Source: a virus. Taken from it: a stretch of 22,023 nt of DNA. The translations under genes and the position numbers were made by a program. The notes below the pieces were generated by a model, which saw only the letters and a list, made by a program, of their open reading frames with translations, was not told where the DNA came from and did not search any database. How positions within the stretch are numbered: position 1 is the first letter of the stretch; every line of letters starts with the position of its first letter. Below are positions 18,530 to 21,541 of the stretch, one piece after another. Where the stretch lies: positions 1 through 22,023 of IMG/VR virus record IMGVR_UViG_3300022220_000026; one strand, 5' to 3'.

Positions 18530-18913
18530 TTACTCATCACCTTCTCTTAAAGCCTTTGGGTCATATGCAAGATTGAAGTTGAAGGTATTAGACTTCTCAT
18601 TGTCAGGGTCATGACCATATGTTTCAGACTTTCTAAATCTATTTTTACAGTTATAAATGTATGCAGCGGCACTAAAATTCTTTAACTTACCAGCTGCACC
18701 ATGTATACCCAACTCCTCCCAAAAAGCTTGGCAACGCTGAAAACCTATCTTTTTGGCCTGCAAAAATTCGTCATGAACCTCCCATTCGTATACAGTACGT
18801 TTACATACCTCGATCGTAGCTCCAAATGTTTCATAACTCATACCCTTAGCCATATGCTTGATCAACATCTGGCAGTATTTCTTTTTGTATTTTGTCGGTC
18901 TACCAGCTGGCAT
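18530..18913 (-). CDS. terS: Terminase small subunit (127 aa)
   Basis: ATG at 18913 lies 5 bases after AAGGAG and overlaps the methyltransferase stop (TGATG); a GTG one codon earlier is too close to the ribosome site. The start MPAGRPTKYKKKYCQMLIKH is the GRPTKY-type N-terminus common to small terminases with a helix-turn-helix. The helix-turn-helix is at about 25-48 (GMSYETFGATIEVCKRTVYE). The EELGIHGAAG segment follows, as in many family members, then a helical oligomerisation part. It recognises the packaging site and recruits TerL. The C-terminal end is polar and less conserved. Confidence 0.88.
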   Translation of the reverse strand: MPAGRPTKYKKKYCQMLIKHMAKGMSYETFGATIEVCKRTVYEWEVHDEFLQAKKIGFQRCQAFWEELGIHGAAGKLKNFSAAAYIYNCKNRFRKSETYGHDPDNEKSNTFNFNLAYDPKALREGDE

Positions 18914-19602
18914 CACGGCTCCTTTACGATAGTTCCATTACAATAATCAGAGTATCTTTTTAGAATTACGTTTATATATTTTATATCTATTTCCATTCCA
19001 AAACATCTGCGCTCGGTCTTCTCGCAGGCTATTAGTGTGGAGCCGCTGCCTAGGAAATAGTCTAATATTATTTTTTTATTTCCACCCCATTCGTCAAAAA
19101 AATTCAAAATTAAATTAATGGGCTTTTGGGTTGGATGTAGCCTTTTTTCTCCCTTTTCCTTGTTTATAGCGCCCGTCCATATTGTTTCAAAAAGCTTTAT
19201 CCTGTGTTTTTCTTTAGACCAGCATAATTCAAAATCACTATTGAAAAACATTTTATTTTGACGCTGTTCTTTCGTTTTCTTTGACCAAACTAACCACGAT
19301 CCGCCCTTTGGTAAGTCCCAGCAGTAGTAATTACTTCCCCACCAAAACTGTTCTTTTATATCTTTGTTAAATATTTTCTTAAAATAATCTGTTTTATCAT
19401 CACCTATAATACTCCCTAAATTACTTGGCCTCATACTTGTTGTGTTTTTTTTAGAAATCTTTACCCTATCGTCATATTCAATCCCATAAGGCGGATCAGT
19501 AAACACCATATCAGCCTTCGCACCATCCATTAGATCAGCAACATCAGCCTCACTAGTGGAGTCACCGCATTTAATACGGTGCTTACTTTTTAATCTAAGC
19601 AT
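18913..19602 (-). CDS. DNA methyltransferase, beta-class N6-adenine/N4-cytosine type (229 aa)
   Basis: ATG at 19602 follows GAGG by 7 bases and overlaps the upstream stop (TGATG). The catalytic motif DPPYG is at 36-40 and the S-adenosylmethionine-binding motif FLGSGST at 183-189, with HPTQKP at 156-161 and GMEID at 202-206. The order catalytic then cofactor motif marks the beta class; DPPY most often means adenine-N6. The first residues (KHRIKCGDSTSEADV) match the junction where ParB-like domains are usually fused to such enzymes, so this and the upstream gene look like the two halves of one protein. It is AT-rich: about 31% GC in 300 bases counted within 19081-19440, against about 45% in the capsid gene, suggesting separate origin. 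Probably protects phage DNA from host restriction. Confidence 0.9.
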   Translation of the reverse strand: MLRLKSKHRIKCGDSTSEADVADLMDGAKADMVFTDPPYGIEYDDRVKISKKNTTSMRPSNLGSIIGDDKTDYFKKIFNKDIKEQFWWGSNYYCWDLPKGGSWLVWSKKTKEQRQNKMFFNSDFELCWSKEKHRIKLFETIWTGAINKEKGEKRLHPTQKPINLILNFFDEWGGNKKIILDYFLGSGSTLIACEKTERRCFGMEIDIKYINVILKRYSDYCNGTIVKEP

Positions 19603-20234
19603 CAAGCAACCTCACAATCGCATGGGGTATCGACTCTAGATTTATCATATTCTATTTTTACATTGCATTTATCACATTCCAAATAAGCGCCTAGTAGAAA
19701 TACATCGCCACGCTCGACGTCATATGTGTTTTCATTTTCCTCTACTTCGGGAACCTCGTCCTCACGCTCATCACGGTCTGACTGTTCTTGCTCCTCCTGC
19801 GCCGATTGAAAAAAGTCCTCGCCAATATCAGGAAAGTCAAAGTCGTCTAATTCAAAATTCTCACCTTCGATAAAATCCTGAAAGCCGGTTTTGTTTAGTT
19901 TACCATATTGGGATACCGCAAGTAGAACAGTCTCCTTGGCCTCGCTATATGTTCTGGCTTGAACTATGACGCAAGGGATTGGCGGGATCTCGATTCCCTC
20001 TTTCTGCATTTGTTGCAAAACGTGAACACGCTGGTGCCCATCGATGAGATAGTTGATACCGCCGTTTTTCCAAACGTGAAGAGATAGCTTAAAACCTTTC
20101 TCTAGCATCGACTTGCGAAGCTTAGAATGATTAGCGTCTGAGAGCGTCTTAAGCTCGCCTTGGAGCGGCTCCAGGCTGTCTACTGATATATGTTCCAGAT
20201 TCTTTTCGACCTTGATCTCGACTGATTTAGCCAT
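19602..20234 (-). CDS. ParB-like (ParB/sulfiredoxin-fold) protein with C-terminal Cys motif (210 aa)
   Basis: ATG at 20234 has AGGGG 5-6 bases upstream; a GTG 15 bases further up has none. Residues about 15-120 form a ParB/Srx-like domain: SVDSLEPLQGELKTLSDANH, then LIDGHQRVHVLQQM (the DGHQR nucleotide-binding-type motif at 65-69) and VIVQARTYSEAKETVLLAVS. Residues 145-170 are strongly acidic. Then YDVERGDVFLLG appears, which in ParB-methyltransferase fusions leads straight to HRL-CGDST; here it is followed by a tail with C-x2-C (187, 190) and C-x-C (205, 207), a possible zinc site, and a stop. The next gene resumes with KHRIKCGDST. A role with the methyltransferase or packaging is inferred. 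Confidence 0.8.
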   Translation of the reverse strand: MAKSVEIKVEKNLEHISVDSLEPLQGELKTLSDANHSKLRKSMLEKGFKLSLHVWKNGGINYLIDGHQRVHVLQQMQKEGIEIPPIPCVIVQARTYSEAKETVLLAVSQYGKLNKTGFQDFIEGENFELDDFDFPDIGEDFFQSAQEEQEQSDRDEREDEVPEVEENENTYDVERGDVFLLGAYLECDKCNVKIEYDKSRVDTPCDCEVA

Positions 20235-20306
20235 TGAAACCCCTATCACTAATATTTTTATATGTTGGCTCGAATCTACATTAATATGGCAGTGAATACA
20301 ACGGCT

Positions 20307-20342: not shown

Positions 20343-20404
20343 CACGGGAAAATTCAGATGGTATGGCATTCTCTTTTGATAAAGACAAATAGGGAGTGAG
20401 AAAA

Positions 20405-20761
20405 ATGAAGGACAAGAGCAAAGTGGAAAAGATGATGCAAGAATATTTAGAAAAAACCAATACTGAGAGCTGGTCAAAGGCAGATTTTGAGCGATTCGAG
20501 CGATTGGTCAAGGAAGGTGCTCAAGATGTTCAGCGCTTTGTAGAGAAGTGCGGAGAGCACAGAGACGCTTACTTTTCCGAGCGAGACGTCCTTTTCGGTA
20601 TTGTGCAAAGTTTTTTAGTTGAGCTAGAAAGACAACTTAATTTCATTTCTGAGGCAGACCCTGTGGACGTTGCCTTGAAGCTGGACAATATGGTGAGCAG
20701 ACTGAAAAAGTCCACCGGTCACTTGTCGAAAGCCTTGGCCGCTCTGAGCTTTGACGAATAA
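20405..20761 (+). CDS. Helical protein of unknown function, only plus-strand gene (118 aa)
   Basis: ATG at 20405 has AGGGAG 8 bases upstream; an in-frame GTG at 20396 overlaps that site and is unlikely. The protein is charged and almost wholly helical: KVEKMMQEYLEKTNTESWSK, FERLVKEGAQDVQRFVEKCG, FGIVQSFLVELERQLNFISE and VALKLDNMVSRLKKSTGHLS. No DNA-binding, membrane or catalytic motif is visible; one Cys. It is divergent from the late operon and shares its intergenic region, so it could be a regulator of late expression or a host-interaction gene added on its own. No family recognised. Confidence 0.7.
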   Translation: MKDKSKVEKMMQEYLEKTNTESWSKADFERFERLVKEGAQDVQRFVEKCGEHRDAYFSERDVLFGIVQSFLVELERQLNFISEADPVDVALKLDNMVSRLKKSTGHLSKALAALSFDE

Positions 20762-20785
20762 AAATATAGAGCCAAGGACGGCTCT
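20757..20785 (-). terminator. Intrinsic terminator after the 66-aa gene
   Basis: On the minus strand AGAGCC, a 6-base loop, GGCTCT, then ATATTTTTATT: a clear hairpin plus U-run. It lies 35 bases after the 66-aa gene stop and closes the right-hand transcript. It overlaps the last codons of the plus-strand gene. Confidence 0.8.
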
Positions 20786-20794
20786 CCACTTCCA

Positions 20795-20813
20795 AGCAGG
20801 GGATGCCCCCGCT
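20795..20813. repeat. Second GC-rich hairpin between convergent genes
   Basis: AGC-A-GGGG-ATG-CCCC-C-GCT can fold with one internal mismatch. It lies between the 66-aa gene end and the terminator. No U-run follows on either strand, so it may block readthrough or protect the transcript end. Confidence 0.45.
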
Positions 20814-20819
20814 CTAGAC

Positions 20820-21020
20820 TTACTTAACTACTTTGAATTTTGCGTAGTCAGTAGCAGTAAGATCATCAGAAGGAAGACGTGCCTTTGTCTCAGTTCCGTT
20901 GGGTCTTACTCTATAGATAGTATTCTCAACTTGCTTGAGATGAGTTCCTTCTTTCCAAGCTCTCCTAGTAACAAGATTTCCAGTAGACAAGTTTTTTAGT
21001 GCTGCTGCTATTGTAGCCAT
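20820..21020 (-). CDS. DUF2829/Tad2-like small protein, possible anti-Thoeris factor (66 aa)
   Basis: ATG at 21020 has AAAGGA 8 bases upstream. The sequence starts MATIAAALKNLSTGNLVTRR, followed by AW: the A-L-x-x-L-x-x-G-x-x-V-x-R-x-x-W pattern seen in DUF2829 proteins. The rest is beta-like (TIYRVRPNGTETKAR) and ends with DLTATDYAKFKVV, where that family has a T-x-x-D-x-x-A-x-D-W end. It is shorter than typical members (about 80-90 aa) and ends in DYAKF rather than DW. Members of DUF2829 include Tad2, which sequesters the cyclic signal of Thoeris defence. The match is by eye; the function is inferred. It has its own 150-base leader and a strong terminator, so it may be expressed well. Confidence 0.55.
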   Translation of the reverse strand: MATIAAALKNLSTGNLVTRRAWKEGTHLKQVENTIYRVRPNGTETKARLPSDDLTATDYAKFKVVK

Positions 21021-21170
21021 ATGTGCTTTCCTTTGGTTTTAAATTGGTGGGTGGTACCGAGGGTAGTAAAAAGGTACGACGTTGAAACCACCCCCAGCAA
21101 CGCCTGGTCTTCAATTCAGGAATGTAAGTCGTAGCATGACATAGAACAGTTTTCAATATTTAAAACCTGT
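21021..21170 (-). promoter_or_regulatory. Leader region of the 66-aa gene with inverted repeats
   Basis: No gene is seen in this 150-base stretch apart from the ribosome site. It holds an imperfect inverted repeat AACAGTTTT/AAAACCTGTT (21145-21153 and 21162-21171, one bulge) overlapping a TTGAAA -35-like hexamer, and GGGTGGT/ACCACCC (21049-21055 and 21087-21093). A -10 at proper spacing (TACGAC) is poor. Likely a promoter/leader; details uncertain. Confidence 0.35.
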
Positions 21171-21311
21171 TTATTTTGCTGAATTCCACCAGTCTCTGAT
21201 CCAAGTCATTAATTTAAAAACCCCCATCACTGTGCATATCGGAACCACTACAAAAACGAGAAAAGTGATTCCAGAAATCCAATACCAAGGCTCGGCAAAA
21301 AATGCATCCAT
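21171..21311 (-). CDS. Single-span membrane miniprotein (46 aa)
   Basis: ATG at 21311 has a near-perfect AAAGGAG with a 7-base spacer and is 2 bases after the preceding stop. The 46 residues are MDAFFAEPWYWISGITFLVF at the start, a membrane segment at about 10-33, and a basic/aromatic end MTWIRDWWNSAK. The basic end after the span suggests the C-terminus is inside. Together with the 75-aa gene before it, it forms a pair of small membrane proteins, as seen for holin/antiholin or superinfection-exclusion genes. No lysin is nearby, so the function is open. Confidence 0.65.
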   Translation of the reverse strand: MDAFFAEPWYWISGITFLVFVVVPICTVMGVFKLMTWIRDWWNSAK

Positions 21312-21313
21312 AA

Positions 21314-21541
21314 CTAGTCTCCTTTTAAATATCTAATGGCTTCACGTATCGAGAAAAACAAATGTCTAGCGTGCTCGTTTATAATTTGCAGGACGTTATT
21401 GAAAACACTGAGAGATATCACTAAGAGGAAATATGTAGCGATGATAAAAATCACGGTGTACTCATCAAAGGCATTGACTATGCCCTCGATTAGTTTTTCG
21501 GATAGATCTTGTAGTAGTTTGTCTTTGTCGAACCAAGCCAT
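21314..21541 (-). CDS. Single-span membrane protein (75 aa)
   Basis: ATG at 21541 has AGGGGGTGA upstream. Residues 1-26 are an amphipathic, charged helix (MAWFDKDKLLQDLSEKLIEG); residues about 27-48 are hydrophobic (VIFIIATYFLLVISLSVF); residues 50-75 are a second amphipathic helix with several Arg/His (IINEHARHLFFSIREAIRYL). One membrane span with cytosolic-type basic residues after it is likely. No family recognised. It is followed within 2 bases by another small membrane gene, so they may act together; a holin or membrane-exclusion role is possible but not shown. Confidence 0.65.
   Translation of the reverse strand: MAWFDKDKLLQDLSEKLIEGIVNAFDEYTVIFIIATYFLLVISLSVFNNVLQIINEHARHLFFSIREAIRYLKGD

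Follow-up and report, generated by a model that had tools for sequence, protein, structure and literature searches.

Does a short gene in an uncultured tailed phage encode a Tad2-like protein, and if so, is that protein likely to act against the Thoeris defence system? An earlier note, made from the DNA letters, had proposed the 66-aa product of this gene, here designated P0001, as a Tad2/DUF2829-like anti-Thoeris candidate. The window we analysed is the whole of a 22,023-base IMG/VR record, which is probably a fragment, and which carries tailed-phage genes on its minus strand, among them those for a tape measure protein, a major head protein, large and small terminase subunits, a DNA methyltransferase and a ParB-like protein. 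The P0001 gene lies directly upstream of this structural/terminase/methyltransferase/ParB-like module, between it and a run of small ORFs; four small ORFs of no assigned function precede it, and a single gene on the opposite strand (20396-20761, plus strand) stands between it and the ParB-like gene.

The gene and its surroundings

The P0001 ORF is a real gene. It is found on the minus strand at the coordinates where it was first claimed, it begins with ATG, and its codon usage (+0.36 log2 odds per codon) is as in the structural genes of the phage; the ORFs that overlap it score -0.10 and +0.03. The features of the locus are collected in Table 1.

Table 1. Features of the P0001 locus, with coordinates in the 22,023-base window
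Feature	Coordinates	Strand	Basis
P0001 gene, Tad2-like (PF11195 / DUF2829-like), 66 aa	20820..21020	-	ORF, coding score, profiles, predicted fold
Ribosome-binding site AAAGGAAAG, 5 nt before the ATG	21026..21034	-	sequence
Terminator-like hairpin AGAGCC-GTCCTT-GGCTCT, then ATATTTTTAT	20768..20785	-	site scan and RNA fold
Second G+C-rich hairpin, between stop codon and terminator hairpin	20791..20818	-	RNA fold
150-nt gap upstream of the P0001 gene	21021..21170	-	no promoter-like site, no unusual structure

Two flanking signals had been read by the earlier note as the marks of an early anti-defence gene: a leader of its own and a strong terminator. An intrinsic terminator after the gene is plausible, with a hairpin followed by a T-run and a fold of the region just 3' of the gene (20762-20825) at z -3.0. 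The argument for it rests on position and folding, because the count of hairpin plus T-run sites in the region is near chance (two found, against a shuffle mean of 1.3). The leader did not hold up: a scan of the upstream gap found no promoter-like site in it, and its RNA folding is not unusual (z -0.4), so that the gap is no evidence of separate early expression.

Several neighbouring genes deserve description in their own right. The opposite-strand gene encodes 121 aa and is convergent with the P0001 gene, whereas nearly all other likely genes of the record are on the minus strand; its codon score (+0.28) is like that of the phage's own genes, and its product has no meaningful family match. 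The ParB-like protein (215 aa) and the DNA methyltransferase (230 aa) are encoded by minus-strand genes with a 4-nt overlap (18913-20249), and match successive parts of the methyltransferase PHROG phrog_498 (positions 29-199 and 200-425); judged by these matches, the pair represents a ParB-methyltransferase gene that is split in two. Directly upstream of the P0001 gene are adjacent ORFs of 46 and 75 aa (21171-21541, minus strand), for each of which a single membrane-spanning stretch is likely; neither has a family match, and their products may serve in lysis or as membrane accessories.

Neither the terminase nor the methyltransferase, when used as a search query, led to a sister phage of this record, and a Tad2-like gene was present in none of 62 methyltransferase-bearing loci. 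The best terminase matches among phage records are about 25% identical, many genes of the head/tail region are without a PHROG match, and the record seems to represent an orphan lineage.

Relationship of P0001 to Tad2

The comparison with DUF2829 that the earlier note had suggested as a check returns a match, albeit a sub-threshold one. PF11195 is the sole Pfam-A family matched by P0001, over residues 3-43 only, at 17.1 bits (E 0.008), where the curated Pfam cut-off is 25 bits; this is also the one match to the family in the whole record (E 5.3e-4 per genome). A custom profile of classical Tad2 gives P0001 12.9 bits, a score equalled by one of 20,000 shuffles. The C-terminus of P0001 goes unrecognised by a profile confined to that of classical Tad2, and the claim that the protein is Tad2-like therefore rests on intermediates and on fold. 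NCBIfam, PADLOC and PHROGs gave no informative match, and searches of IMG/VR, INPHARED phages, PLSDB plasmids and GTDB genomes turned up no close relative.

The Pfam score below threshold and the C-terminus missed by the classical profile would both fit a protein that is no relative of Tad2 at all and matches its motif by chance. The motifs themselves argue otherwise. The N-terminal motif that had been noticed near the start is present, as A7-L8-x2-L11-x2-G14-x2-V17-x-R19-x2-W22, and a slightly looser form of it appears in none of 400,000 shuffles of residues 2-31. The end of the protein had been described as T-x-x-D-like; a C-terminal motif is indeed there, but is better described as D53-L-T-A-T-D58-Y59, and the family form, D-[LIVMF]-x-[AS]-x-D-[WYF], arises in 3.4e-4 of shuffles of residues 32-66. 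In an alignment with 48 Tad2 sequences and seven short relatives, both the N-terminal A-x3-L-x2-G-x2-V-x-R-x2-W and the C-terminal D-x2-A-x-D-[WYF] are present.

As the direct evidence from Pfam and the classical profile is marginal, closer relatives were sought by pattern. The IMG/VR DNA-pattern search used the N-terminal half only (G-x2-V-x-R-x2-W-[KP]-E-G) and returned, among chance matches, several short ORFs with a C-terminal D-[LI]-x-A-x-D-[WYF] that was no part of the pattern. Both motifs occur in L164/L171, L180, L206 and L158, and weaker forms of the C-terminal one in L207 and L208. L180 (65 aa), L206 (a 62-aa domain) and L218 exceed the Pfam cut-off alone; the two-domain frame of L158 passes it only with both domains counted. 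This last frame (L158:10620-10970, minus strand; L169:3519-3869, minus strand) encodes a 117-aa phage protein consisting of two tandem short Tad2-like domains.

A profile built from seven short relatives, with P0001 left out and with L180 and L206 (each above the Pfam cut-off alone) included, gives P0001 36.6 bits over residues 4-60, a score whose N-terminal half is inflated because the relatives were picked by their N-terminal motif, while the C-terminal match is free of such selection. The maximum reached in 50,000 shuffles is 17.4 bits, and none of about 46,000 scored shuffles is as good. When 13 further Tad2 sequences are added to the seven relatives, P0001 scores 25.2 bits against a shuffle maximum of 13.1. 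A profile of P0001 and the seven relatives, without classical Tad2, finds only Tad2/AcrIIA7 chains at E < 0.01 among 177,635 distinct PDB sequences (best E 4e-7), and in the alignments of two of the best matches the N- and C-terminal stretches stand in the correct order. Profile-profile comparison with classical Tad2 gives a probability of 97.6%.

Other searches yielded candidates that were set aside, or none. A made-up short consensus gave no match among phages at E 0.01. From a combined W-K-E-G ... D-x2-A-x-D pattern only L164/L171, already known, was accepted; the other four viral matches and all 38 bacterial or archaeal ones were judged to be chance occurrences in unrelated frames. We also observed that Tad2-like proteins of Klebsiella phage N1M2 (L067:383-622) and several Vibrio phages are labelled methionyl-tRNA synthetase or methionine--tRNA ligase in GenBank; this looks like an annotation error that has spread.

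Structure prediction is the second line of evidence. The AF2 model of P0001 alone is too poor to be used by itself (pLDDT 59); its fold search gave no significant match, and SPO1 Tad2 (8smf_A), at rank 22, has the top TM-score (0.49) of the 50 matches listed. With the short relatives in the alignment, and classical Tad2 kept out of it, pLDDT rises to 93.5 and pTM is 0.77. The first 23 matches of this model in a PDB fold search are all Tad2/AcrIIA7 chains (TM 0.79-0.88, probability 1.00), and the next match has a probability of 0.41. Of the top BFVD matches that have a name, most are labelled Thoeris anti-defense 2-like or DUF2829, among them proteins with lengths of 60 and 65 aa; entries without a name (63 and 67 aa) match as well. 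The model consists of an N-terminal helix that carries A-L-x2-L-x2-G-x2-V-x-R-x2-W, strands, a short helix, and a last strand at D-L-x-A-x-D-[W/Y]. The predicted fold is thus that of Tad2, and with the sub-threshold profile match to DUF2829 the Tad2-like assignment withstands the refutation that the earlier note had set for it.

Taken together, the profiles and the predicted fold indicate that P0001 almost certainly belongs to the Tad2-like superfamily. With independent motifs at its two ends, profile scores far above those of shuffles and top fold matches that are all Tad2 chains, an accidental resemblance is very improbable.

The length of P0001, which had been thought unusual and among the smallest for the family, is not exceptional. 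Tad2-like proteins this short are already common in phages: L130 has 64 codons (Pfam E 2e-23), the protein of Bacillus phage Pavlov has 60 aa (E 4.3e-5), the BFVD entries have 60, 63, 65 and 67 aa, and L180 is likewise about as short.

Ligand pockets and possible function

While the fold of P0001 is in all likelihood that of Tad2, what can be said of its ligand? Tad2 is a homotetramer whose gcADPR pockets are lined by the beta1-beta2 and beta3-beta4 loops, strand beta4, the beta4-alpha3 loop and helix alpha3, and which binds cyclic dinucleotides through an insertion between beta2 and beta5 (PMC12043709). Tad2 proteins are demonstrated sponges for both kinds of molecule (PMC12043709), and a relative binds His-ADPR (PMC13299392; PDB 9eib); the fold thus accommodates more than one specificity.

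P0001 keeps the family core (A7, L11, G14, V17, R19, W22, S51, D53, A56, D58 and an aromatic residue at 59); the loops that line the pockets in Tad2 are not conserved in it. First, K-E-G stands where classical Tad2 has N-G-K-G, the WNGK loop being represented by K-E with one residue deleted - a comparison in which conservation of the WNGK and FG-A-E residues is partly due to selection, since the pattern used to choose most of the Tad2 sequences included WNGK or an FG-A-E start. Second, R48 replaces the W that precedes the PS-D turn in all 48 of the Tad2 sequences compared, and the S-Q-T-D turn (W-x-[AP]-S-Q-T-D) is one residue shorter. Third, the central insertion is absent.

Because these altered regions border the known ligand pockets, binding of gcADPR or cyclic dinucleotides is not to be assumed. 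Judging from the sequence, P0001 probably lacks the site for cyclic dinucleotides and has a changed gcADPR site. Since the bordering loops differ, a ligand of P0001 would probably be bound otherwise, neither as SPO1 Tad2 holds gcADPR nor through a central insertion. Of the original proposal, then, the fold and the superfamily stand, whereas its ligand and anti-Thoeris level is unsupported; that P0001 is specifically anti-Thoeris seems doubtful.

The missing pocket-lining motifs, together with the lack of close relatives, could also mean that P0001 is a decayed or non-functional Tad2 copy that binds nothing. However, its ORF is intact, with a good ribosome-binding site and phage-like codon usage, the core residues are retained, and the same 'losses' recur among independent short relatives, all of which make decay very improbable.

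The main rival is a different one: P0001 may be a Tad2-fold domain with another job, a general phage module whose partner is some other metabolite, a protein or nucleic acid; the sponges for immune signals would then be confined to the classical WNGK / W-x-[AP]-S-Q-T-D subgroup. Consistent with this, the classical NGK loop is absent from all the short relatives and the S-Q-T-D turn from most, and Tad2-like domains are found in tandem (L158), inside larger phage proteins (as the C-terminal part of a longer frame in L164, and in BFVD proteins of 200-270 aa) and adjoining lysogeny regulators in Staphylococcus phages. Against it, MoTad2 has changed its ligand specificity within the fold and kept the sponge role (PMC13299392), so that altered pocket loops are compatible with a sponge. 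We regard another job as a serious possibility, at somewhat less than even odds.

The explanation that we favour, with a probability of roughly 0.6, is that P0001, encoded by an uncultured tailed phage, is a minimal, divergent, single-domain member of the Tad2-like superfamily and a putative nucleotide-signal sponge. Like Tad2, P0001 would assemble into an oligomer; the oligomer would hold a small nucleotide that a host defence system produces as its signal, and with the nucleotide so held the host defence effector would not be switched on. By analogy with its family, sponging of some defence nucleotide is the most likely role of P0001, and we put it at about an even chance. A further suggestion, that the short W-[KP]-E-G Tad2-like domains, P0001 included, form a separate functional subgroup binding a signal new for Tad2, we consider distinctly unlikely; if true, it would indicate a defence signal or system for which no phage sponge has so far been matched.

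Either outcome would be informative. A sponge role for P0001 would show to what extent the Tad2 fold can shrink and still work, and would make the short W-[KP]-E-G subgroup a cheap panel in which to look for further phage sponges and for what they bind. Should P0001 have no such role, this would be a warning that the many small phage proteins now carrying the Pfam label 'Thoeris anti-defense 2-like' are credited too readily with anti-Thoeris function.

Comparison with known Tad2 proteins

SPO1 Tad2 (gp34.65; PDB 8sme/8smf/8smg) has the same fold as that predicted for P0001, with TM 0.83-0.87 (normalised by query length; chains A and H of 8smf), and the two share the N-terminal A, L, G, V, R and W and the C-terminal S, D, A, D and aromatic residue. 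They are 15-18% identical in structural alignments of 8smf/8smg/8sme. SPO1 Tad2 has about 89 aa against 66, and three of its features are missing from P0001: the WNGK loop, a W in the turn preceding helix 3, and the central insertion. In the same respects P0001 differs from the Tad2 of a Myroides odoratus prophage (ModTad2; PDB 8v3e, 9eib), which binds His-ADPR and is its best PDB match by sequence profile (E 4e-7), with TM up to 0.88 to the P0001 model. AcrIIA7 / HgmTad2 (PDB 8kbi, 8kbk) again has the fold of the model (TM 0.79-0.80), but is 104 aa long; its long central insertion, which P0001 does not have, is in the region that Tad2 uses to bind cyclic dinucleotides (PMC12043709).

In length and reduced architecture P0001 is like the short phage Tad2-like proteins, namely those of L180, L206, L164 and L158, the 60-aa Pavlov protein and a 60-aa DUF2829 protein of Klebsiella phage KpS110 in BFVD. 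With the IMG/VR members of this set (L180, L206, L164 and L158) it is only 19-33% identical, yet shares both the W-[KP]-E-G loop and the D-[LI]-x-A-x-D-[WYF] ending.
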